Below, piece after piece: positions 244 through 17,275 of a stretch of DNA of 64,000 bases. Under the pieces are notes generated by a model. That model saw only the letters and a list, made by a program, of their open reading frames with translations. It was not told where the DNA came from and did no database searches. Source of the stretch: Siphonodentalium dalli (Eukaryota > Mollusca > Scaphopoda > Gadilida > Siphonodentaliidae); the NCBI GenBank assembly GCA_032622095.1, contig CP136064.1:177274247-177338246 (forward strand), in the 5' to 3' direction. Position 1 is the first letter of the stretch; every line of letters starts with the position of its first letter. Both the position numbers and the translations under genes were made by a program.

Positions 244-869
244 GAGACACCACGTGTGACATCCAAATGGTCATTTGTCTCTTTTGGTACTATCATGATT
301 TAGTCGAGAAGAGTCAAGCAGTCGGCACACATGACAAAGCATTTCATTGCCAAATTTTACTTGTTCACCATGTTGCTAATTAGCTTGAAAAGAAAATCAT
401 ATATACGGTACCATTTGTTCTTCAGCATCAGGTATACGCACGTTAACTAAGTGTTTTATTGACTGGATACGCGTAGTCATGACATTCGGCGGTTTCTATT
501 TCACGAATATCAACTTTCAGAGTATATAGCTGTTTCCAGTCTGAATTTTTTGTGGACAATTGTATTTGCCTATGAAAATCAGTCATTGTCTTTTAACTTT
601 CTGAGTTTTATAGATTTTTTGTTAAATTATCATGCCAGGCTAATTAAGTTTCCTGTGGACCATTCTGTTTTGGTATTTGAAACAATGCCATCACATCTAT
701 GACATCTATACATGCGTTGCAAACGGGTTTATTTCAAAATCAGATATGAACTTATGTGAATATTATAGGTCGATTATGAACCTATTTTTGCGACGATATA
801 TGTTGTACCACAAGTTGTACGTAGTGTTTTCTACTTAAATGCACGTACGTGTTGATCATTTGTGTAAGG

Positions 870-1165
870 TCATCTTCTTCCGCTCATCGATCAAACAACC
901 ATGCAGTTTCTTTCGGTCCCTGCTTAATACTAAGACCATGCACATTGTGAAAATGATCAATTTTATCGCAGTTTCGTCCTTGTGCTAAACGAAATTTATG
1001 CATAGTTTCGAATTGAAGCGGACAGCAACTATTTACGCCAACATTTTAATCTCGTGCTTACTGAGACTCGTGGGCATCTATATATACCTAATATAAATTC
1101 ACACTGTGTGCATGGTATAGAACGTTATGTACAACGACCCCATCAGCGCCACTTTGTGGTTAAAT
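870..1165. repeat. Segment shared with the fold-back at 17.3-17.7 kb
   Basis: This part of the duplicated block, and its copy near 9730-10020, matches 17280-17570 in inverted orientation at clearly lower identity. Shared landmarks are the ATCGATCAAACAACCATG stretch, AGGGACCGAAAG read on the other strand, and AACGACCCCAT near the right end. The block therefore contains older dispersed repeat material and is not unique DNA. Confidence 0.7.
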
Positions 1166-1883
1166 TTGCGCTCCACAAAATACACCTAATAATATCCGCT
1201 TCCGAAACAAAAAATACAGCCATTTGCACAGTATGGAACAGAAAAGAGCGTTCCGTGTTGATCTATTCCCAATATGGCAACAATAAAGAGCGTTTATTCC
1301 ACTTATGTGCGAAAGATTGTAAACGGTACGAAAATGGCTATAACCATATCGAAAGTATTTTTCAGAGCATATGATGCCGGTATATCAATAGTTCTTGTAT
1401 TTGTAGCGTACACCATTATCAAATACTAAAACATAAACACTCTGTGAATGTCCTATTAAAGGCACGGGCGGTGTTCGTTGCAGAAATATTCATATTTGTT
1501 CAAATCACCATCAACAGAAGGAATATTAAAAAATATATAGTTTTGTTCATATGCCAAACATAATCAGCGCGTAAATATTATATTGTCGTCAAGGCGTACG
1601 ATGGTGTACGTAAAGAAGAGATAGCCTGCTCGTGTTATCTACAGAAGTTGTGCTTCTGGTTACATAACTCAGCGCAATTATATTGGTTAATCACACAAAA
1701 ATGATATAAACGCTCTTTATTATTTCCATATAAGGAAAACAGTAACAAATAATACTCTTTATGTTTACCATATCCGGATCTAAACAAAAGCCAGGAAACA
1801 ACGTTTTTTTTGCTTTTGTTTACATAACAAAGGGAAAATACTGACAATAACATACTGTTTATGCCATATATTTCTGATTGGTA

Positions 1884-3499
1884 CAGGGGGGGGTCGCACA
1901 CAAAAATTCCATATATGAGGCGGGGGTGGGTGGGTCATTTCACCCGGAAAAAATGCGTAAATGACCAAAAATGCAAATTTTTTCCTCCACTTAAAATCAC
2001 TGTTTTTGTGCTCATGTAATCTGTTAATATCAACCATATGACACACTATGCTATTTAAAACATACTAACCAGAACTAACTACCATTTAGGGGTGTATGTA
2101 TGCTGATGTATGTCAAAATTAATGTACCAGATTTCGACGGATGAAAGATATATTATATAAGCATAATTATGAAATGATTACCATCTTCTGTTCTTAATCC
2201 ACATAATGGATATTATTTGTTATCAAGATAAACTTGATGATACAAACAAAAATAACAGTTCCACTATATTCCACTGGTTTAAAACTATAAAACAAAATAA
2301 CTCATACAAAAAGTTCATACTATTTGGATAACAATATGAAAACTTAGCCTTTTGTGATATTAAATCAACCACAGTTATTATTCACAAGTCTAAGCAGTTA
2401 GGTACTGTACATATACATGTAATAAGGTAATATATCTTGGAGTTCCAGTTATTTGACTGCCAATACATATGGTATTGTAATTATTAGTTGTTTGTTCATT
2501 ATTGGTTGCTTTGATATTCAATTTAGGATATAGCAGGATAGAGCAATGTAACTATAAAAGTAGCTTTTGGTATTAAAGTCTCAACTTATTCCATATGCAA
2601 CATAAAGCTAGAATATAAACATGACTAATATGAACTTTGTTCTTGAAACTAATTATAAATCATACTAACCTGGATCAAACTGCACAGGTAATCTATGCAA
2701 CTCTCTTCATGCGAACTTACTCAGAGTCACATATCTCAACTGAACAGTCTGATCCAGGATGCTTGTTCTTATAATGGGTTTCCATGTGATACGTCCAGTA
2801 AACCACATTGCACAGGGGGAACCTACATGTATACAGACGGTTTGTACAAGGTGACCGTGGCTTGGATATCTCTGCTGGCTTTAAACTAAACTTTATACTC
2901 TGATAATAAGTTAATAATACTACCAATTTTTCGCTAATATTGGTATATGTCAATCTGCGAACCAACATGACATACATACATGTATTTATACTGAGCTGCT
3001 GTGAGTGTGACTTTCCTTGGCTTGGGTCCCAGATGAAATTTGTTCTACCCCTATTACTACAGTATTACTATTGGGCCTTGACTCTAAAACATCTTATACT
3101 ATTGTTATATAAAAGAATATGGAGTTATTGAGGATATCAGGAAATGTATTACCTCGTAATTATTATGTTTTATGGCATTATGCCCAATGTTTTTAAGTGC
3201 ATGCGTTCAGCATTTCCACATTTTATACTAATAGAATTATCTCCCTTTAGAGCAGTTTAGAGGTTTACTAAAATGCTGGGAATAGTATTAAATAATAAGA
3301 AATGGAACAATTCTTTGCTAGGCTTTGATTTGGTTTATATTTTATGTTTTTTGTAAGATTTTGGGGGGGTGGGTCCCAAAAATTGGGCGGAAAAAAAAGT
3401 AAAAAATTGCAGGTAGAGGGGTGGTGGGTCCCCGAAAGGGGCAAAAACATTTTTTTCGCCCTATATATGTAAAAAATTTCCGCGACCCCCCCCCCCCCT
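1884..3499. mobile_element. Non-autonomous DNA transposon present only in copy 1 (hAT-like ends)
   Basis: About 1.6 kb present in copy 1 and absent from copy 2, where the site reads TTCTGATTGGTATAAG uninterrupted. The ends are CAGGGGGGGGTCGC on the left and GCGACCCCCC..CTG on the right, so they are inverted repeats ending in CAGGG/CCCTG. Imperfect complementarity continues inward (ATATATG, GTGGGTGGGTC, AAAAATT). A direct repeat ATTGGTA, up to CTGATTGGTA, flanks it. The exact outer base is ambiguous because the terminal CTG overlaps the duplication. The CAGGG start suggests the hAT superfamily, whose duplications are 8 bp. No transposase frame is seen. Confidence 0.8.
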
Positions 3500-3995
3500 G
3501 ATTGGTATAAGAATAAGGTCTGTCTATATATTTTACTATTCTTTCTATTTATGGCGGTTTTTGACGGAGGTGCATGAATATTTTAACAGCATATAGGCCT
3601 ACCCACCGCCAACATCTTTAATACTGACATTCAAAGCAAGGCAATCTAAACATATTAGTTTTTCGTTTCTAAGGATAAAATAAAAACAACATAAGGTGGA
3701 AATAAAGCAGACATATACAAAAACCAGGTGGTCAAATTTTCAAATCGAGTTTCCCCACAAAAAAACTAAAAATGGATATAGAACCGATGCGACGCTATCA
3801 GTTCAGGTTATATGTACATGTACACGCTAGGCAGTATCCCACAAGGGGTATGCACCGGACGACATTCCATCTCTTGTATTTATTTGGGTTTGATTATGAA
3901 ATCATATATATTGTCAATATTGTTTTTCAAATAATTTTATTCTGCTTTAACAACCGATAAAATATGTGGAATCAACATAATTTTGAAGATCGAAT

Positions 3996-4723
3996 GAGCC
4001 ATGTCCCCGTTTAAAGATCATACGGGATAACCCCCAGATGGAGATGTGGACCAATGTTCAACCAAATTGCAGAACTGCACAAAGAACAGCGCAGTGCGCT
4101 ATTGAAGCACATACACATAAAAGGAAATTGCCAGTTTATTCATATGGATATTTTAGTTGTAAATGCTACACAAGCTCGGGATAAACCTGTTTACTTAAGT
4201 ACCGTACTATGACAGAAGCTACCGTACCATACAAATAACATGTAGTAATTCCTATTTAGTGACATATGTTTAACGAGAACAATACGTTTTGGTCACATTA
4301 TCTGTTTTAACTATTGAAAGCCAAGACAAAAAACCCCGGTGAGATCGAGCCGCTATACACGAGCCATGTCCCCGTTTAAAGATCATACGGGATAACCCCC
4401 AGATGGAGATGTGGACCAATGTTCAACCAAATTGCAGAACTGCACAAAGAACAGCGCAGTGCGCTATTGAAGCACATACACACAAAAGGAAATTGCCAGT
4501 TTATTCATATGGATATTTTAGTTGTAAATGCTACACAAGCTCGGGATAAACCTGTTTACTTAAGTACCGTACTATGACAGAAGCTACCGTACCATACAAA
4601 TAACATGTAGTAATTCCTATTTAGTGACATATGTTTAACGAGAACAATACGTTTTGGTCACATTATCTGTTTTAACTATTGAAAGCCAAGACAAAAAACC
4701 CCGGTGAGATCGAGCCGCTATAC
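3996..4723 (+). repeat. 365-bp local tandem duplication (copy 1 only)
   Basis: GAGCCATGTCCCCGTTTAAA starts at 3996 and again at 4361, and both units run to GATCGAGCCGCTATAC. They differ by about one base (CACATAAAAG versus CACACAAAAG), so this duplication is younger than most differences between the 8-kb copies. Copy 2 has a single unit from about 11236. Confidence 0.92.
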
Positions 4724-5646
4724 TAAATCGTGACATCTATAAGTTTGTAGAGTGTTATATCTTAGCACAAAAATAAAACAGTGAATTTTGAAGAATTTTG
4801 GGGTGAGGGTGTGAAATAATCTCACATAATACAGCACATGTTACGGATAGTGACATATTCAGCTTACTATATATTTCCGCAGTTTTCTAGATTACGTACG
4901 AGATCCCAAGTCAATTAAAACAATATTTATCTGGATCGCCCATTAAGAGGGACAAAACAAAATGAAAAATTGCGCTTTTTTGTCTATTTTCACCATAAAT
5001 ATATCTTGCTATATCTATCAACGAAATTGTGACACTATCATATTGAATATCTAGAAGTATGTAGATTACAATATGTTATCGCAAACAGATCGCGTTTCTC
5101 TCCTTGCATGTCCCATTTTGCCGCATTTTACAAAACCAGGATTTTTTGCTTTGGCACTTAAACCACTCAATATCAACTTTTGCATTTTTGTATATTTCAC
5201 ACCGGCGTCACACCAGTGCGCAATGTCATAACCATCAAAATGATGTTTCACAAGCCTGTGTGTGGTGCCGATGGACTAAACTTTCTGAAATCGGTTCCGC
5301 CCGCTCCACTATAATATATATTACCTACGCTTGCTTGCTTGTTGTGGATTTCCCTCCTTTAAGTCAGGAGCACCCCATTATATTGGGTATATAAAATAAT
5401 GGAAGTAAAAATAAGTCAAATAAAACCAGGTAAAACTGCAATAATGATAAAATAGTTGGTAGAATTGTGGTACTAGTGAGTTAAAAGATTTGTGTGTGTG
5501 TAAGTTACACTTAAGAACTTTTAAGTTGAGCTTTCATATGTACATATATGTACATGTATATTTTGATTGGATAGTTAAAATTGTCGTATTGACAAGAATA
5601 TTTACAGGTAGTTGTTTTGCCTGTACAGCTCGGCTAGTTTGTCATT

Positions 5647-8219
5647 TTATATGTGCGTGTCTGCTTCTGTTTTTAAAGTGTTTACTCTATGCACATGAAT
5701 TGAGTATAAGAAATTTCTTGCCAGTTTTTCAATTTGTTCTTTTTCTATATCGGTAAGGTTCCAGGTTTCTAGTTTTGTGCAGTCTAAGGTTAACTGAGTT
5801 AAGAGTTCTGGTTGATCAATAATGTATTTGTCAGTGGTAGTTTTGAGAGACATAGTTTGAGTTTTTGTATGTAACGATGTCGTTGGTTGCTAGTGTTCGT
5901 ACATTGTGAAATGAAGTGTATTCTGTCCTCATCAGCTAGTTTGCATAGTGGACATATGGCAGAGGTCAGGTTTTGTCTAAATCTTTTTATATTTATTTGT
6001 AGTAAATAAGTGTCTGTCATCAACCATGTTTTTATAATAGCCTTTTTTGTGGCAGCGGGCGAGTATTTTGATGAATCCCATACAAGATGACATTTGCTGC
6101 TGGAATTTTCTTGCAGTTTGATCATTGCTAATGTTGTTTTACTGGAGAACTCTTTGTCATTAATATCATGCCAATATTGGTATATAGCTTTTTTACATAT
6201 TGTTTTCCATTTGTTGGCATCTTCCTTACTGTGGATGGTGTTTATGATATGCAGTGGGTCAGGAAGGGTATATTTGGAAAGTATGTCTCTGACATGTATA
6301 AACCAGCTATGGCTGTTGTCATTATTCATGATAAGTTGTCTTATTGCAAGATCTCGCTCTGCAGAGTTGTGTGTTTTGGCTATATTAATATAGAATGTTG
6401 TAATTTTGAGATCTATAGTGCCTTGGATGGGAATAGCACCAATAAGTGCATTTGTAGCAGCATTTGCTGTGCGTGTTGATAATCTGCAATTGTCTCATGG
6501 TTTTTCGTTGGAAACGTTCGAGTTCATCTATGTCTTTTTTTCATATGTAGGATTTCTATACCATGCAGCATTCTAGGAATGACAAAAGTGTTCCACATTT
6601 GGTATGCTATTACTGGTGATATACCGTTTGTTCCATGTAGCCCTGTACCCATCAAGGAGTATAGGGTTCGTCTGCCCATTGTTATTCGTTTTGGGATATC
6701 TGGGGTATTCGTTGGATTACGATCTACACCTAGGTGTTTGGTGGAGCCTACGATATTAACAGGAGTTCCACCTAGGACAGTTTTTATTTCACCATTCATT
6801 TTTTGTGTAGATGTTTTCATTTGGACAATTTCGCATTTAGTTGCGTTCATTGCGAATCGATCTTTACATGAGTTGTTGTATACAATACTTGTGAGAGTTT
6901 GTAAATCAGATGTTGTTTTTGCTAAGATAGCTACATCATCTGCACAGGTGGGGCTGTTATATCAATTGTGCCAATTTTAAACACAGCTGCATTGTTACTT
7001 AGCTGATTTAGCATGTCGTTGTTAAATCTTTTATAGAGCATTGCTGATAATTTAGCCCCTTGTCTTATTCCTTGGTGAAGTAGTATACCTGAGGAGTATG
7101 ATCCACCCCATTTTACCTTTGTATTCGCCTCATGATGTAATGAATTTACAAGTAGCCATAGGTCGCTGTGGATCCCATCAATGAAAAGTTTTCTCAGTAG
7201 GCTTTTATGCCATACAACGTCAAATGCTTTTTCAGCATCCAGGGTTTCTAATATTAATTTCTCATTTATGTCTTTGCTTTCATTGAATGCTTCAGTTATC
7301 ATAAGCCCAGCAACTAGGGGTGATGTGCCTTGAGTGAAGCCACGTTGCATTTTATTTTGCGATGGTAATAGTATGTTGTCTAGTTTGTCTTGCAGGGTTG
7401 CTTCTAGGATTTTACATATTATGGAGCTGATAGTTATGCCCCTGTAATTCCCTGGTTTTGTTGGGTCTTTGTCCTTTTTTGGTACAGGTGTTAATATGCC
7501 GATTTTTATTTCTTTTGGCACTTCTCGTTTTTCATATATAGTGTTTATGATGTTCATGATTATTGGGGCAGTTTCTTCTATGCTATATTTGAGGTGTTCA
7601 GCCGTAATTCCAGCATAGTCAGCTGCTTTATTTAGTTTGAGCTTATTGACAATTGTTTTAATTTCATGCAGTGTGACTGGTTCTAAAGATGGTGTATTAG
7701 CACGACATATTTGTTCAATAGCTTCAATATCAGCCGAGACTTGTTTGTGGAATGTATCATCAAATCTATCGGCAGTTTTTGGTTCTGACAGTTTTTTGAA
7801 GTGTTTAAACCACCCATCCATCATCTGTTCGGCACCATATTGGTGTCCATCTATTTCAATATACTCAGTGACTACACTCTTGGTGAGCCTTTGTTTGTTT
7901 ATAAGTTTATAGAATAGCACTTGATCATTAGATGCATTGGCTTGAGAGATTTCATCATATAGCTGGGTTCTCTCTGCAGCTATTTGTTGCCTTTGTGTAC
8001 ATCTTAACTTCTTTTTAGTGGCCATTTTTGCCATTTTAAGTGGATTATTTGTGTCAACTGGCCTACCTGCCGTTTTCCATTGATAATGGGCCTTTTTACT
8101 TTCTTGTATCGCACTGGCTATGCTTGGATTCCATTGTTTTTGACCATTGGAGCTTTTTTTTATGCCTTTTGGCAGGTGTGGCTTTCTCTGCTGCGCTTAT
8201 TATCATTTGGCCAAACTTC
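5647..8219 (-). pseudogene. Non-LTR retrotransposon reverse transcriptase, copy 1 (frameshifted, 5'-truncated)
   Basis: Minus-strand reverse transcriptase broken into several frames. The largest open piece (6931-8034) holds the fingers and palm motifs: NKAADYAGITAE, GNYRGITISS, RGFTQGTSPLVAG, LDAEKAFDVVWH and HQGIRQGAKLSAML. The frame shifts just before the catalytic Asp-Asp motif. Further downstream pieces follow at 6524-6850, 5799-6329 and 5647-5853, and a Cys/His motif (CPLCKLADED..H..C) lies in the C-terminal part. No apurinic-type endonuclease domain precedes the RT, so the 5' part is missing. Unlike copy 2, it keeps the 14 residues after the motif A Asp (VVWHKSLLRKLFID). The family is likely of the I/Nimb/CR1 type, but the clade cannot be fixed by eye. 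It is not expressible as one protein. Confidence 0.9.
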
Positions 8220-8240
8220 ACGTAAACTTGTACGGCGAAT

Positions 8241-8264
8241 ATAGATAGATAGATAGATAGATAG
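8241..8264. repeat. (ATAG)6 microsatellite upstream of RT copy 1
   Basis: Six ATAG units, with the counterpart at 15106-15129 in copy 2. Read on the minus strand it is a (CTAT)n tract preceded by TTTCAATAAAAG. It therefore looks like the 3' tail of another retroelement abutting the truncated 5' end of the RT element. Confidence 0.85.
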
Positions 8265-8315
8265 CTTTTATTGAAACCAAATGCATGCACTGTACATACA
8301 ATGGACCCCGAGAGG

Positions 8316-8323
8316 TAGGCCTA
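8316..8323. other. TAGGCCTA: empty site or excision footprint of the copy-2 element
   Basis: At this position copy 2 carries TA, then an 879-bp element beginning GG and ending CC, then TA. Copy 1 has TA-GG-CC-TA, that is, both TA target copies plus two terminal bases from each element end. This is what cut-and-paste excision by a Tc1/mariner-type transposase with a 2-nt staggered cut would leave. Confidence 0.65.
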
Positions 8324-11300
8324 TGACTAGAAAATAAACATTGGTATATTTTACCGAAACAAACAAAGCATATTATATTAATCCATGCAGTCAAGTAGTT
8401 TCCGGATCCTGATTAGTCAAGATTTGTTAACTGTAAATATCTAACTGTTTGAAATTGAATGGTGCACTGCCAAATGTATGGTACGTATCAACTATACTAT
8501 ATAATATATTGTAAGTCTGCAGTCCGATCACTTCTTCCCACGGTGCATGCAACAAGATGGGAGTTGACAGGTCCCAACTTTTATTGCAAAATTAATAATA
8601 GAAGTCATTAGGCAGGGTAACTACTTGACATTTGAATATGGATAATATAAAAAGGTTCTTATACAAGTATGCACTGTATAATCTGCAAGTATATGTCACT
8701 TTGAGAAATATACGCCGTATACAATAATTGTAACCTGTGGTGGCCCCATGTTTCCGTATATTAATTACCGTTATAAATCCCCTCATTTTGTAAAAACATA
8801 AACATTGGACTACGGGGGTGGGGGGTAGCCTAGACCACTTTTCAACTGTTCACACAAACGCTCTTTATTAATACCATCAGATAAATGAAAACATAAGCGC
8901 CCTTTGTATTGTTGTAACACACTGCACAAGGTATAAACCGCAATTACTCGACTGGTATTTACGGTAAATAATACAACGCGCTCATTGGCTGCACAACTTA
9001 TTTATTATTCAGTGACCCGAGGTCACGCGTGTGCTCTGTTCTCACTCATGTGAATGACTGAGTCACCGATACAGGAAGTGAAAATGACAACAAATGGGTG
9101 ATGAGACACCACGTGTGACATCCAAATGGTCATTTGTCTCTTTTGGTACTATCATGATTTAGTCGAGAAGAGTCAAGCAGTCGGCACACATGACAAAGCA
9201 TTTCATTGCCAAATTTTACTTGTTCACCATGTTGCTAATTAGCTTGAAAAGAAAATCATATATACCATTTGTTCTTCAGCATCAGGTATACGCACGTTAA
9301 CTAAGTGTTTTATTGACTGGATACGCGTAGTCATGACATTCGGCGGTTTCTATTTCACGAATATCAACTTTCAGAGTATATATAGCTGTTTCCAGTCTGA
9401 ATTTTTTGTGGACAATTGTATTTGCCTATGAAAATCAGTCATTGTCTTTTAACTTTCTGAGTTTTATAGATTTTTTGTTAAATTATCATGCCAGGCTAAT
9501 TAAGTTTCCTGTGGACCATTCTGTTTTGGTATTTGAAACAATGCCATCACATCTATGACATCTATACATGCGTTGCAAACGGGTTTATTTCAAAATCAGA
9601 TATGAACTTATGTGAATATTATAGGTCGATTATGAACCTATTTTTTTTTTGCGACGATATATGTTGTACCACAAGTTGTACGTAGTGTTTTCTACTTAAA
9701 TGCACGTACGTGTTGATCATTTGTGTAAGGTCATCTTCTTCCGCTCATCGATCAAACAACCATGCAGTTCCTTTCGGTCCCTGCTTAATACTAAGACCAT
9801 GCAATATGTGAAAATGATCAATTTTATCGCAGTTTCGTCCTTGTGCTAAACGAAATTTATGCATAGTTTCGAATTGAAGCGGACAGCAACTATTTACGCC
9901 AACATTTTAATCTCGTGCTTACTGAGACTCGTGGGCATCTATATATACCTAATATAAATTCACACTGTGTGCATGGTATAGAACGTTATGTACAACGACC
10001 CCATCAGCGCCACTTTGTGGTTAAATTTGCGCTCCACAAAATACACCTAATAATATCCGCTTCCGACAGCTTCCGGAACAAAAAATACAGCCATTTGCAC
10101 AGTATGGAACAGAAAAGAGCGTTCCGTGTTGATCTATTCCCAATATGGTAACAATAAAGAGCGTTTATTCCACTTATGTGCGAAAGATTGTAAACGGTAC
10201 GAAAATGGCTATAACCATATCGAAAGTATTTTTCAGAGCATATGATGCCGGTATATCAATAGTTCTTGTATTTGTAGCGTACACCATTATCAAATACTAA
10301 AACATAAACACTCTGTGAATGTCCTATTAAAGGCACGGGCGGTGTTCGTTGCAGAAATATTCATATTTGTTCAAATCACCATTAAAAAATATATAGTTTT
10401 GTTCATATGCCAAACATAATCAGCGCGTAAATATTATATTGTCGTCAAGGCGTACGATGGTGTACGTAAAGAAGAGATAGCCTGCTCGTGTTATCTACAG
10501 AAGTTGTGCTTCTGGTTACATAACTCAGCGCAATTATATTGGTTAATCACACAAAAATGATATAAACGCTCTTTATTATTTCCATATAAAGAAAACAGTA
10601 ACAAATAACACTCTTTATGTTTACCATATCCGGATCTAAACAAAAGCCAGGAAACAACGTTTTTTTTGCTTTTGTTTTCATAACAAAGGGAAAATACTGA
10701 CAATAACATACTGTTTATGCCATATATTTCTGATTGGTATAAGAATAAGGTCTGTCTATATATTTTACTATTCTTTCTATTTATGGCGGTTTTTGACGGA
10801 GGTGCATGAATATTTTAACAGCATATAGGCCTACCCACCGCCAACACCGCCCGTATCTTTAATACTGACATTCAAAGCAAGGCAATCTAAACATATTAGT
10901 TTTTCGTTTCCAAGGATAAAATAAAAACAACATAAGGTGGAAATAAAGCAGACATATACAAAAACCAGGTGGTCAAATTTTCAAATCGAGTTTCCCCACA
11001 AAAAAACAAAAAATGGATATAGAACCGATGCGACGCTATCAGTTCAAGTTCAGGTTATATGTACATGTACACGCTAGGCAGTATCCCACAAGGGGTATGC
11101 ACCGGACGACATTCCATCTCTTGTATTTATTTGGGTTTGATTATGAAATCATATATATTGTCAATATTGTTTTTCAAATAATTTTATTCTGCTTTAACAA
11201 CCGATAAAATATGTGGAATCAACATAATTTTGAAGATCGAATGAGCCATGTCCCCGTTTAAAGATCATACGGGATAACCCCCAGATGGAGATGTGGACCA

Positions 11301-12543
11301 ATGTTCAACCAAATTGCAGAACTGCACAAAGAACAGCGCAGTGCGCTATTGAAGCACATACACATAAAAGGAAATTGCCAGTTTATTCATATGGATATTT
11401 TAGTTGTAAATGCTACACAAGCTCGGGATAAACCTGTTTACTTAAGTACCGTACTATGACAGAAGCTACCGTACCATACAAATAACATGTAGTAATTCCT
11501 ATTTAGTGACATATGTTTAACGAGAACAATACGTTTTGGTCACATTATCTGTTTTAACTATTGAAAGCCAAGACAAAAAACCCCGGTGAGATCGAGCCGC
11601 TATACTAAATCGTGACATCTATAAGTTTGTAGAGTGTTATATCTTAGCACAAAAATAAAACAGTGAATTTTGAAGAATTTTGGGGTGAGGGTGTGAAATA
11701 ATCTCACATAATACAGCACATGTTACGGATAGTGACATATTCAGCTTACTATATATTTCCGCAGTTTTCTAGATTACGTACGAGATCCCAAGTCAATTAA
11801 AACAATATTTATCTGGATCGCCCATTAAGAGGGACAAAACAAAATGAAAAATTGCGCTTTTTTGTCTATTTTCACCATAAATATATCTTGCTATATCTAT
11901 CAACGAAATTGTGACACTATCATATTGAATATCTAGAAGTATGTAGATTACAATATGTTATCGCAAACAGATCGCGTTTCTCTCCTTGCATGTCCCATTT
12001 TGCCGCATTTTACAAAACCAGGATTTTTTGCTTTGGCACTTAAACCACTCAATATCAACTTTTGCATTTTTGTATATTTCACACCGGCGTCACCGGGTCA
12101 TACCAGTGCGCAATGTCATAACCATCAAAATGATGTTTCACAAGCCTGTGTGTGGTGCCGATGGACTAAACTTTCTGAAATCGGTTCCGCCCGCTCCACT
12201 ATAATATATATATTACCTAGGCTTGCTTGCTTGTTGTCGATTTCCCTCCTTTAAGTGAGGAGCACCCCATTATATTGGGTATATAAAATAATGGAAGTAA
12301 AAATAAGTCAAATAAAACCAGGTAAAAATGCAATAATGATAAAATAGTTGGTAGAATTGTGGTACTAGTGAGTTAAAAGATTTGTGTGTGTGTAAGTTAC
12401 ACTTAAGAACTTTTAAGTTGAGCTTTCATATGTACATGTATATTTTTGTTTTGTTTTTAAGATTGGTATAGTTAAAATTGTCGTATTGACAAGAATATTT
12501 ACAGGTAGTTGTTTTGCCTGTACAGCTCGGCTAGTTTGTCATT

Positions 12544-15081
12544 TTATATGTGCTTGTCTGCTTCTGTTTTTAAAGTGTTTACTCTATGCACATGAATTGA
12601 GTATAAGAAATTTCTTGCCAGTTTTTCAATTTGTTCTTTTTCTATATCGGTAAGGTTCCAGGTTTCTAGTTTTGTGCAGTCTAAGGTTAACTGAGTTAAG
12701 AGTTCTGGTTGATCAATAATGTATTTGTCAGTGGTAGTTTTTGAGAGACATAGTTTGAGTTTTTGTATGTAACGATGTCGTTGGTTGCTAGTGTTCGTAC
12801 ATTGTGAAATGAAGTGTATTCTGTCCTCATCAGCTAGTTTGCATAGTGGACATATGGCAGAGGTCAGGTTTTGTCTAAATCTTTTTCTATTTATTTGTAG
12901 TAAATAAGTGTCTGTCATCAACCATGTTTTTATAATAGCCTTTTTTGTGGCAGCGGGCGAGTATTTTGATGAATCCCATACAAGATGACATTTGCTGCTG
13001 GAATTTTCTTGCAGTTTGATCATTGCTAATGTTGTTTTACTGGAGAACTCTTTGTCATTAATATCATGCCAATATTGGTATATAGCTTTTTTACATATTG
13101 TTTTCCATTTGTTGGCATCTTCCTTACTGTGGATGGTGTTTATGATATGCAGTGGGTCAGGAAGGGTATATTTGGAAAGTATGTCTCTGACATGTATAAA
13201 CCAGCTATGGCTGTTATCATTTTTCATGATAAGTTGTCTTATTGCAAGATCTCGCTCTGCAGAGTTGTGTGTTTTGGCTATATTAATATAGAATGTTGTA
13301 ATTTTGAGATCTATAGTGCCTTGGATGGGAATAGCACCAATAAGTGCATTTGTAGCAGCATTTGCTGTGCGTGTTGATAAACTCTGCAATTGTCTCATGG
13401 TATTTCGTTGGAAACGTTCGAGTTCATCTATGTCTTTTTTTTTCATATGTAGGATTTCTATACCATGCAGCATTCTAGGAATGACAAAAGTGTTCCACAT
13501 TTGGTATGCTATTACTGGTGATATACCGTTTGTTCCATGTAGCCCTGTACCCATCAAGGAGTATAGGGTTCGTCTGCCCATTGTTATTCGTTTTGGGATA
13601 TCTGGGGTATTCGTTGGATTACGATCTACACCTAGGTGTTTGGTGGAGCCTACGATATTAACAGGAGTTCCACCTAGGACAGTTTTTATTTCACCATTCA
13701 TTTTTTGTGTAGATGTTTTCATTTGGACAATTTCGCATTTAGTTGCGTTCATTGCGAATCGATCTTTACATGAGTTGTTGTATACAATACTTGTGAGAGT
13801 TTGTAAATCAGATGTTGTTTTTGCTAAGATGGCTACATCATCTGCACAGGTGGGGGCTGTTATATCAATTGTGCCAATTTTAAACCCAGCTGCATTGTTA
13901 CTTAGCTGATTTAGCATGTCGTTGTTAAATCTTTTATAGAGCATTGCTGATAATTTAGCCCCTTGTCTTATTCCTTGGTGAAGTAGTATACCTGAGGAGT
14001 ATGATCCACCCCATTTTACCTTTGTATTCGCCTCATGATGTAATGAATTTACAAGTAGCCATAGGTCGCTGTGGATCCCGTCAAATGCTTTTTCAGCATC
14101 CAGGGTTTCTAATATTAATTTCTCATTTATGTCTTTGCTTTCATTGAATGCTTCAGTTATCATAAGCCCAGCAACTAGGGGTGATGTGCCTTGAGTGAAG
14201 CCACGTTGCATTTTATTTTGCGATGGTAATAGTATGTTGTCTAGTTTGTTTTGCAGGGTTGCTTCTAGGATTTTACATATTATGGAGCTGATAGTTATGC
14301 CCCTGTAATTCCCTGGTTTTGTTGGGTCTTTGTCCTTTTTTGGTACAGGTGTTAATATGCCGATTTTTATTTCTTTTGGCACTTCTCGTTTTTCATATAT
14401 AGTGTTTATGATGTTCATGATTATTGGGGCAGTTTCTTCTATGCTATATTTGAGTAGTTCAGCCGTAATTCCAGCATAGTCAGCTGCTTTATTTAGTTTG
14501 AGCTTATTGACAATTGTTTTAATTTCATGCAGTGTGACTGGTTCTAAAGATGGTGTATTAGCACGACATATTTGTTCAATAGCTTCAATATCAGCCGAGA
14601 CTTGTTTGTGGAATGTATCATCAAATCTATCGGCAGTTTTTGGTTCTGACAGTTTTTTGAAGTGTTTAAACCACCCATCCATCATCTGTTCGGCACCATA
14701 TTGGTGTCCATCTATTTCAATATACTCAGTGACTACACTCTTGGTGAGCCTTTGTTTGTTTATAAGTTTATAGAATAGCACTTGATCATTAGATGCATTG
14801 GCTTGAGAGATTTCATCATATAGCTGGGTTCTCTCTGCAGCTATTTGTTGCCTTTGTGTACATCTTAACTTCTTTTTAGTGGCCATTTTTGCCATTTTAA
14901 ATGGATTATTTGTGTCAACTGGCCTACCTGCCGTTTTCCATTGATAATGGGCCTTTTTACTTTCTTGTATCGCACTGGCTATGCTTGGATTCCATTGTTT
15001 TTGACCATTGGAGCTTTTTTCATGCCTTTTGGCAGGTGTGGCTTTCTCTGCTGCGCTTATTATCATTTGGCCAAACTTCAC
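12544..15081 (-). CDS. Non-LTR retrotransposon reverse transcriptase, copy 2 (845 codons, internal deletion)
   Basis: One long minus-strand frame encoding the reverse transcriptase part of a LINE-type element, which copies element RNA into chromosomal DNA by target-primed reverse transcription. Motifs in order: a basic linker (residues 1-110), NKAADYAGITAE (about 200), GNYRGITISS (about 250), RGFTQGTSP (about 290), LDAEKAFD (327-334), HQGIRQGAKLSAML, the catalytic TCADDVAILA (about 411-420), and a Cys/His motif CPLCKLADED..H..C near 745-765. There is no N-terminal endonuclease domain, so the element is 5'-truncated at the (ATAG)n tract. After the motif A Asp, 14 residues present in copy 1 are missing (42 nt, in frame), which should damage the palm fold. 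Despite its open frame it is therefore probably inactive. Being internal to a truncated element, its first Met is not expected to be a genuine start. Confidence 0.88.
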   Translation of the reverse strand: MKFGQMIISAAEKATPAKRHEKSSNGQKQWNPSIASAIQESKKAHYQWKTAGRPVDTNNPFKMAKMATKKKLRCTQRQQIAAERTQLYDEISQANASNDQVLFYKLINKQRLTKSVVTEYIEIDGHQYGAEQMMDGWFKHFKKLSEPKTADRFDDTFHKQVSADIEAIEQICRANTPSLEPVTLHEIKTIVNKLKLNKAADYAGITAELLKYSIEETAPIIMNIINTIYEKREVPKEIKIGILTPVPKKDKDPTKPGNYRGITISSIICKILEATLQNKLDNILLPSQNKMQRGFTQGTSPLVAGLMITEAFNESKDINEKLILETLDAEKAFDGIHSDLWLLVNSLHHEANTKVKWGGSYSSGILLHQGIRQGAKLSAMLYKRFNNDMLNQLSNNAAGFKIGTIDITAPTCADDVAILAKTTSDLQTLTSIVYNNSCKDRFAMNATKCEIVQMKTSTQKMNGEIKTVLGGTPVNIVGSTKHLGVDRNPTNTPDIPKRITMGRRTLYSLMGTGLHGTNGISPVIAYQMWNTFVIPRMLHGIEILHMKKKDIDELERFQRNTMRQLQSLSTRTANAATNALIGAIPIQGTIDLKITTFYINIAKTHNSAERDLAIRQLIMKNDNSHSWFIHVRDILSKYTLPDPLHIINTIHSKEDANKWKTICKKAIYQYWHDINDKEFSSKTTLAMIKLQENSSSKCHLVWDSSKYSPAATKKAIIKTWLMTDTYLLQINRKRFRQNLTSAICPLCKLADEDRIHFISQCTNTSNQRHRYIQKLKLCLSKTTTDKYIIDQPELLTQLTLDCTKLETWNLTDIEKEQIEKLARNFLYSIHVHRVNTLKTEADKHI

Positions 15082-15105
15082 GTAAACTTGCAGTGTACGG
15101 CGAAT

Positions 15106-15129
15106 ATAGATAGATAGATAGATAGATAG
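15106..15129. repeat. (ATAG)6 microsatellite upstream of RT copy 2
   Basis: Exact counterpart of 8241-8264. The repeat number is the same in both copies, which suggests the duplication (or haplotype split) is recent. Confidence 0.85.
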
Positions 15130-15182
15130 CTTTTATTGAAACCAAATGCATGCACTGTACATACAATGGACCCCGAGAGGTA

Positions 15183-16061
15183 GGGGATACCCGGGCAAAG
15201 CGGATCGCCCGGGCAAAGCCGATCACCTTTATTATTTCAATACTATCAAATTATCCCTTATCTATCTGTATTTTAGAATAAGGTCGTTTCGTGTTGGGTT
15301 AGTTTTTATACATGTCCACAGAGAACAAGGTATACTAAAATTTTGTAGCCCAGTAGAACATTTTCGTCGACATTTTACGATTTTACCAAATTTATAATTA
15401 TTGTGCGTTTGCGCATATCTGTTGCGCAGGTCGATGATCGCATACCCATCTACCCGAATAAATGTTGTCGGTGTCTTAGGCAATACATGTTTGGAATAAG
15501 ACAATATGTCAATTTGCTAAATTCGATATGACACCCGCGTAATGACCCGGACTGTAAAAAGATGTGCTGTGGGCAAAAGCGGATCGGGCAAAGCGGATCA
15601 TTCATAATATGACTAACTTCCGGTACACATGCGTAGATTAAGTGAATTTGGACAATTTGAATAAGATGGGTCGACAAAACTCGTGCCTTGTCGGAGCATG
15701 TCCATAATTGAAATATTTGAACGTTTGAAAAAACGCGATTTTAATTATTTGCAATAAATATGTATATTTGTCATAAATAAAACTGAAAAGTATAGGATTA
15801 GTTTATTAGTATTGCATTTTCAGAAGGATTCGTTTGCTGATCCGCTTTGCCCGATGTGGTGATCCGATTTGCCCGACGGCCGGGCAAAGCGGATCAAAAT
15901 TAAAAATCACCATAGCAACCAAACCAATAGATGCATCTGAATGCATCCTACGCCAAATGTTATACCATCATGATTAGAAACTGACAGTGCTAATATTTAT
16001 GATTGCCGGTTGCATTTTGTACATGAAAACCTTACGTGATTCGCTTTGCCCGGGTCTCCCC
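15183..16061. mobile_element. 879-bp TA-flanked DNA transposon, copy 2 only, with iterated 14-bp motifs
   Basis: Inserted relative to copy 1 and flanked by TA on both sides (15181-15182 and 16062-16063). Terminal inverted repeats read GGGGATACCCGGGCAAAGCG on the left and GGGGAGACCCGGGCAAAGCG on the right (complement). The motif GGGCAAAGCGGATC or a close variant occurs eight times: 15193, 15211, 15571, 15586 and 15882 on the plus strand; 15839, 15861 and 16038 on the minus. Five of the eight lie well inside the element. There is no transposase frame, so it is non-autonomous. TA flanks suggest the Tc1/mariner/pogo group. Confidence 0.88.
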
Positions 16062-17275
16062 TATGACTAGAAAATAAACATTGGTATATTTTACCGAAAC
16101 AAACAAAGCATATTATATTAATCCATGCAGTCAAGTAGTTTCCGGATCCTGATTAGTCAAGATTTGTTAACTGTAAATATCTAACTGTTTGAAATTGAAT
16201 GCTGCACTGCCAAATGTATGGTACGTATCAACTATACTATATAATATATTGTAAGTCTGCAGTCCGATCACTTCTTCCCACAGTGCATGCAACAAGATGG
16301 GAGTTGACAGGTCCCAACTTTTATTGCAAATTAATAATAGAAGTCATTAGGCAGGGTAACTACTTGACATTTGAATATGGATAATATAAAAAGGTTCTTA
16401 TACAAGTATGCACTGTATAATCTGCAAGTATATGTCACTTTGAGAAATATACGCCGTAGACAATAATTGTAACCTGTGGTGGCCCCATGTTTCCGTATAT
16501 TAATTACCGTTATAAATCCCCTCATTTTGTAAAAACATAAACATTGGACTACGGGGGTGGGGGGTAGCCTAGACCACTTTCAACTGTTCACACAAACGCT
16601 CTTTATTAATACCATCAGATAAATGAAAACATAAGCGCCCTTTGTATTGTTGTAACCCACTGCACAAAGTATAAACCGCAATTACTCGACTGGTATTTAC
16701 GGTAAATAATACAACGCGCTCATTGGCTGCACAACTTATTTATTATTCAGTGACCCGAGGTCACGCGTGTGCTCTGTTCTCACTCATGTGAATGACTGAG
16801 TCACCGATACAGGAAGTGAAAATGACAACAAATGGGTGATGGTTTTGAAATGGTTTCCGCATACATTTCCGATTATTGCACAGAAACATTGTTTAAATGA
16901 ACGATAATAGATAATCCAGTAAGCTACCGGTAAGACTTAGTTATGCCATAGATTGAGATTTCTGACATTTAAATAGCAGGTTGGCTTTGAGAACGGAACT
17001 GGTGAGTGATGAGAATTGACAGTTCAGTGGTGTTTTGTGACACTGGACCTGCTATCAGTGCTGAAGATTAGATAACCTGATAAGTGTGCGCCAAAGGCAG
17101 ATTATCATTGTCTATCGATACTGACACATGGGGTGCAGTCGTATTCGAATTATTGTTTTAATCATTCATAAATGGTGGAGATCAAAGACATACAATCAAC
17201 TGATCAAGAACACCCAGATGTCTTCTTCACCAGTGTTCACTGTCATAAATTGCTAATCCTGCATGTGTCACTCAT

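Follow-up and report, generated by a model that had tools for sequence, protein, structure and literature searches.

An 879-bp TA-targeting MITE and its very probable excision scar in the two copies of a tandem block of the Siphonodentalium dalli genome

The window analysed, a stretch of 64,000 nucleotides from contig CP136064.1 of the scaphopod Siphonodentalium dalli, hosts a tandem block of about 8 kb (Table 1). The two copies share five main blocks, 97-99% identical, and are distinguished by several further indels; the tandem arrangement in this assembly is either a true duplication or the outcome of two haplotypes placed end to end. At one point (C4:177282562) copy 1 reads TAGGCCTA (TA-GG-CC-TA), and the equivalent point of copy 2 reads TA, an 879-bp element starting with GG and ending with CC (GGGGATACCC...GGGTCTCCCC), and again TA. 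The bases flanking the octamer and those flanking the occupied site are identical at 60 of 60 positions on each side, so that the contrast drawn by an earlier sequence-only reading between the two copies is exact. Given the whole-genome count, TAGGCCTA is expected at a given point with a chance of about 3 in 100,000, and its exact match with the insertion point is therefore not fortuitous. Among the best 40 candidates scored for this locus only copies 1 and 2 span the site, and no single-TA version was found. Additional rearrangements mark the block. A 1.6-kb stretch of copy 1 (window 1884-3497) is missing in copy 2 (10730-10739), with about 10 bp common at the break, and may be another mobile insertion differing between the copies. 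Copy 1 also carries a direct tandem repeat of 363 bp, 99.7% identical (window 3996-4723), and a high-copy repeat (window 7916-8221; at least 38 other matches at 97-99%) which ends close to a GATA microsatellite immediately to the left of the octamer.

Table 1. Features of the tandem block, in window coordinates
Feature	Position	Strand	Remarks
Tandem duplication copy 1, element lost	244..9103 (about)	.	
Very probable excision scar TA-GG-CC-TA, copy 1	8316..8323	.	comparison with the occupied site of copy 2, 60/60 per side
Tandem duplication copy 2, element kept	9103..16841 (about)	.	
Left target-site duplicate TA	15181..15182	.	single-TA empty paralogs of 11 other insertions of the family
Non-autonomous element (MITE) retained in copy 2	15183..16061	+	879 bp, longest ATG ORF 51 aa
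Left terminal inverted repeat GGGGATACCCGGGCAAAGCGGATC	15183..15206	+	22/24 positions agree with right end
Two internal copies of terminal motif GGGCAAAGCGGATC	15572..15599	+	
Right terminal inverted repeat	16038..16061	-	
Right target-site duplicate TA	16062..16063	.	

The terminal motif GGGCAAAGCGGATC, or close variants of it, occurs eight times in the element, on both strands; besides the pair listed in Table 1, copies start at 15193, 15211 and 15882 (plus strand), and at 15839, 15861 and 16038 (minus strand). Allowing up to 3 mismatches, there are 8 matches in the 879 bp, terminal ones counted, versus 4 in the remaining 63,117 bp, and the motif copies are possible, putative transposase-binding sites. 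Within the genome (2.23 Gb, nine contigs) 39 further copies of the element were scored at 92-96% identity, out of 568 first-look candidates. For the end sequence TAGGGGANACCCGGGCAAAGCG there are 451 matches, 228 in forward and 223 in reverse orientation, a count which requires the TA, and takes in relatives besides the 879-bp MITE. The genome contains 16 ends of the TAGGGGARACCCGGGCAAAGCG form, which depart from those of the MITE at the sixth base inwards; two were fetched, the first being that of a 1.9-kb relative with no coding capacity, and the second part of the L018-L032 repeat group. The non-coding 1.9-kb relative with the same ends found at L120 (1553-3450) carries the internal motif GGGCAAAG(C/T)GGGAC. 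At L006/L051, L059-L062, L066 and L067 the element is contained in a longer repeat that has been duplicated whole, and is 97-99% identical across loci, flanks included. It seems to travel inside this repeat, ACAACACGCGTA...GTACAGGCCT, of which no empty copy was found by searching for the joined flanks among the best 40 candidates scored; exact matches with 0-10 bases between the two flank sequences were absent as well. No title concerning the 879-bp element was present among the literature matches listed for the terminal repeat and its motif.

A transposase-coding relative was not recognised among the pairs of terminal repeats fetched, whose ORF lists were judged by eye. Seven longer pairs (L039-L045, L044 and L045 being near-identical) were considered as autonomous partners and discarded, as all look like MITE copies hosting a foreign insertion. 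The 5-kb insert interrupting the MITE copy L041 (1374-6429) includes a number of distinct ORFs, and the last of them terminates in a segment rich in cysteine; four of the ORFs of this insert gave no Pfam match.

The target site was defined by joining the flanks of 36 insertions around one TA, and searching the genome with the resulting sequences, a match with no length difference at the join denoting an empty site. For 11 independent insertions out of the 36 (L016, L034, L036, L042, L043, L046, L049, L054, L064, L065 and L074) a single TA was read base by base in at least one paralog each; for L074 two of 40 listed copies were read, and the matches of the third query batch all belong to this locus. 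Among the other insertions L044 was ambiguous, being located within a TA repeat, L011 showed a footprint at its closest paralog, and 23 had no informative site among the best 40 candidates per list. The single-TA paralogs imply that the duplicated target is TA, and that GG belongs to the element. They bear out the expectation of the earlier reading that an unoccupied site has one TA, and answer the check it had suggested, as the empty sites of these 11 insertions exhibit a single TA, and TAGGCCTA is thus not the original target. Element ends from loci sought regardless of the TA (L047-L078) lie directly behind TA in 59 of 61 cases, and so do the remaining two if one G is taken as lost. In the 35 insertions whose ends had been sought behind TA, the outward neighbour of the TA is a purine in 62 of the 70 flanks (44 G, 18 A). 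To judge from these comparisons, the never-occupied site is a single TA, mostly (G/A)TA(C/T). One element copy (L030 2384) is directly followed by TAGGCCTA, and other copies of the local repeat carry TAGGCCTA or a one-base variant; this element was apparently inserted into the TA of what would be an older scar.

The footprint found at L011 is informative. Its nearest listed paralog, L087 (C9:87045300-87045580), reads TAGGCATA. In the element residing at L011 the right end is mutated (...ATCCCA-TA versus the usual ...CTCCCC-TA), so that the last two bases of the element are CA; the same mutated right end is found in the occupied copies L142 and L143, of which the right end only was read, L143 being a neighbour of L011. 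Since the CA of the mutated end is also the CA of TAGGCATA, the scar inherits the mutation of its element lineage. Diverged members of the same host repeat have a single TA in six out of six cases read, of 40 matches listed. Single TA, element and scar, the three states which the sequence-only reading had proposed to look for, therefore coexist in one repeat family, from which it follows that two bases per end are kept at excision. This rule, also put forward by that reading, holds in both cases in which the parent element is readable, i.e. the window site and L087, the latter scar carrying the altered end of its own lineage.

The octamer at 8316 is almost certainly the scar left by excision, in copy 1, of the 879-bp element present in the ancestor of both copies. 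Insertion of the element duplicates a TA, and in the two cases with a readable parent copy the scar consists of TA, the first two and the last two bases of the element, and TA. In the scenario proposed, a transposase supplied in trans would cut the transferred strand exactly at the ends of the element, and its complement two bases further in, which would leave GG 3' overhangs on both flanks. GG and GG are unable to pair with one another, hence end joining with no trimming would retain both overhangs, and give rise to GGCC. Retention of two bases per end is what a Tc1/mariner mode would give if the non-transferred strand were cleaved two bases inwards of either terminus. Elements of the Tc1/mariner type have been described to generate 2- or 3-nt 3' overhangs and TA-flanked scars (PMC3878927), and Stowaway elements to leave scars derived from their ends (PMC1925063, PMC4561436).

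The 879-bp element is a TA-target, GG-ended MITE, similar in its working mode to Stowaway and Tc1/mariner elements, and its excision mechanism looks Tc1/mariner-like. The likeness includes the duplicated TA target, the small size and lack of coding capacity, and a scar made by both TAs and a few end bases. TA is the 2-bp target-site duplication in 11 insertions, and the scars in the window and at L087 retain both TAs plus a number of terminal bases within the 1-4 bp expected of this type. A superfamily label is withheld because no transposase partner was found among the pairs of terminal repeats fetched. Stowaway scars of Thinopyrum have the form TACT...AGTA, with two bases per end (PMC1925063). 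The terminal repeat of the MITE is in contrast GGGGAGACCCGGGCAAAGCG, its ends reading GGGGA(G/T)ACCCGGGCAAAGCG or close to it, and is unlike the Stowaway repeat CTCCCTCCRT; for this reason the element is not filed as Stowaway. The eight copies of the terminal motif inside the MITE set it further apart, and none of the relatives fetched ties a mariner transposase to it. The element shares with Tc1 of C. elegans the TA target and a short scar built from the element ends. Tc1 scars contain two bases per Tc1 end. Yet the typical somatic Tc1 scar is given as +4 (PMC13148408, citing Eide and Anderson 1988), whereas the scar described here is +6, both ends being kept. In rice, 8 of 94 inferred excisions, all superfamilies considered, lacked deletions or filler (PMC4423477); the scars described here are uniform by comparison, though the searches used favour clean scars. 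ISL2EU elements of the PHIS superfamily usually begin with GG, as the MITE does, but duplicate AT within A|AT|T (PMC4482050), whereas the target here is TA, mostly (G/A)TA(C/T). PIF/Harbinger (Tourist) elements differ in their 3-bp target-site duplication (TWA), the empty sites of the MITE indicating a 2-bp TA.

Whether TAGGCCTA is a recurrent scar was addressed by removing the six bases at 25 TAGGCCTA sites, and at 12 control TAnnnnTA sites, and searching the genome with the shortened sequences. A listed paralog spans the site in 10 of the 25 cases, and a single TA was read in a fetched paralog in 5 of these 10 (L014:177, L047:2060, L047:2230, L053:2509 and L075:2119); at L014:177 most of the other listed paralogs retain the scar or a shortened form of it. 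At the other five, all paralogs listed carry the scar, or differ from it by one base. At L018:2030, L051:947 and L051:1985 six or seven extra bases are present in all listed paralogs, one of which was read and the rest assessed by match length; L030:617 and L030:893 match one another and a third neighbour reading TAAGCCTA, only within their own tandem repeat. In the small control set paralogs were available for 2 of the 12 sites, and neither read a single TA. All other TAGGCCTA and control sites gave only the self-match, or nothing listed. When the fetched loci and the window were all aligned with one another, 43 nonredundant contexts differed by exactly six bases, some of them being alternative placements of a single event. 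Nine of the 43 oppose TA-palindrome-TA to a single TA, the inserted form being TAGGCCTA in four, TACATGTA in three, TACCGGTA in one and TACTAGTA in one. Scars of the +4 type (TAGGTA, TACCTA, TACATA, TATGTA) were absent from the local alignments, in which other TA-flanked insertions of 3-14 bases occur. Longer TA-flanked palindromes also appear as insertions relative to related sequences, TACACGTGTA (+8) at window 31249 and TACGGTACCGTA (+10) at window 21534, in one comparison each, and may be scars that kept three or four bases from each end. TAGGCCTA itself thus acts as a scar found repeatedly in this genome. We infer that many other TAGGCCTA words, above all those which appear as six-base insertions versus single-TA paralogs, are scars of the MITE family or of GG-ended relatives. 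Among the literature matches listed none bears on an excess of TAGGCCTA or TACATGTA, or on their role as scars, though earlier work may exist elsewhere.

TAGGCCTA occurs 66,420 times in the genome. About 15,000-17,000 occurrences are expected under a local Markov model, and the word is thus about four-fold in excess, yet the mirror word ATCCGGAT is found 33,611 times; because TAGGCCTA exceeds its mirror only about two-fold, the number of scars is not readable directly from the count. A local estimate over 180 kb (35 occurrences versus 1.4) was too high, since the regions sampled adjoin elements and still contained repeats; it is superseded by the whole-genome count. The regions up to 1 kb from element copies (65.9 kb in 72 flanks, 4 repeated flanks having been dropped) contain 24 TAGGCCTA words, 18 if one tandem array is left aside, versus 2.0 expected from the genome mean; the resulting density is about nine-fold the genome mean, and since the matches are clustered, a Poisson value is over-optimistic. 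The mirror word occurs once in the same regions, 1.0 being expected. Of 72 flanks of TAGGCCTA, 25 have G as the adjoining base, versus 17.6% outside any TA, a weaker form of the preference of the element. A purine lies just outside the word in 69% of the cases for TAGGCCTA and in 70% for TACATGTA, hence the purine part of the preference is not specific. TACATGTA, TACCGGTA and TACTAGTA are likewise in local excess. TACATGTA is found 35 times in the 64 kb of the window, where about 2.3 are expected, and 10 times in the 65.9 kb near element copies; the TACATGTA words of the window are possibly scars of a CA-ended TA family. On C1 TAGGCCTA is found at regular spacing, as pairs every 1,389 bp in G000:C1:8076-16417 and every 1,575 bp or so in C1:647654-661378, and some copies thus reside within tandem arrays.

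The word read in copy 1 could in principle have been generated otherwise. The palindrome TAGGCCTA might be the original target, the element having been inserted at its centre with no duplication; the word is in excess in the genome, and every copy of the element would look the same if this were so. The single-TA empty paralogs of 11 insertions rule out this origin at the family level, and TAGGCATA at L087 matches the mutated end of its own lineage, not a fixed target, which makes such an origin extremely improbable for the window site. Only marginally less improbable is the loss of the element by replication slip or hairpin deletion between the inverted ends, with no transposase involved. The 24-bp ends match at 22 positions, and could indeed form a hairpin. 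Slippage is nonetheless expected to yield scattered endpoints, whereas the two-plus-two geometry is found again at L087, and in the nine six-base TA-palindrome-TA insertions.

Excision of the MITE from copy 1 thus being the preferred explanation at 8316, a separate issue is what the genomic excess of TAGGCCTA stands for. Even if the scar at 8316 is genuine, most of this excess may be unrelated to the MITE family, and reflect TA transposons of other families with GG ends, or else a motif with a mutational or a functional basis. Exact terminal repeat ends are only 451 against the many thousands of octamers, and the parallel local excess of TACATGTA, TACCGGTA and TACTAGTA means that several families may contribute. 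Against this stand the 5 sites, of 10 that were informative, at which a paralog has a single TA, 4 further such cases from local alignment, and the crowding of TAGGCCTA beside MITE copies. TACATGTA is by contrast no denser near MITE copies than in the window, which serves here as a comparison in place of a genome mean. On balance, an excess largely foreign to the MITE family is a serious contender, to which we give somewhat less than even weight.

As a type, the footprint at 8316 is nothing out of the ordinary, though unusually well documented, and the more interesting claim is the one on octamers. That the over-represented TA-palindrome octamers TAGGCCTA, TACATGTA, TACCGGTA and TACTAGTA are for the most part relics of the excision of TA-targeting transposons is a proposition for which we see the balance as level. 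Were it true, the two terminal bases of each family could be read from its octamer, and octamer counts would provide a census of departures, inclusive of transposon families of which few copies remain; the uniform +6 form would in turn show that non-pairing 3' overhangs are joined without trimming in this species. Excision is usually not visible from one assembly. Here the form of the scar is exact, tied to the parent element by an inherited end mutation, and countable. A single genome would then allow measuring the rate of excision, the behaviour of germline end joining and the turnover of vanished transposon families, as short repeated words can record the former positions of mobile elements.
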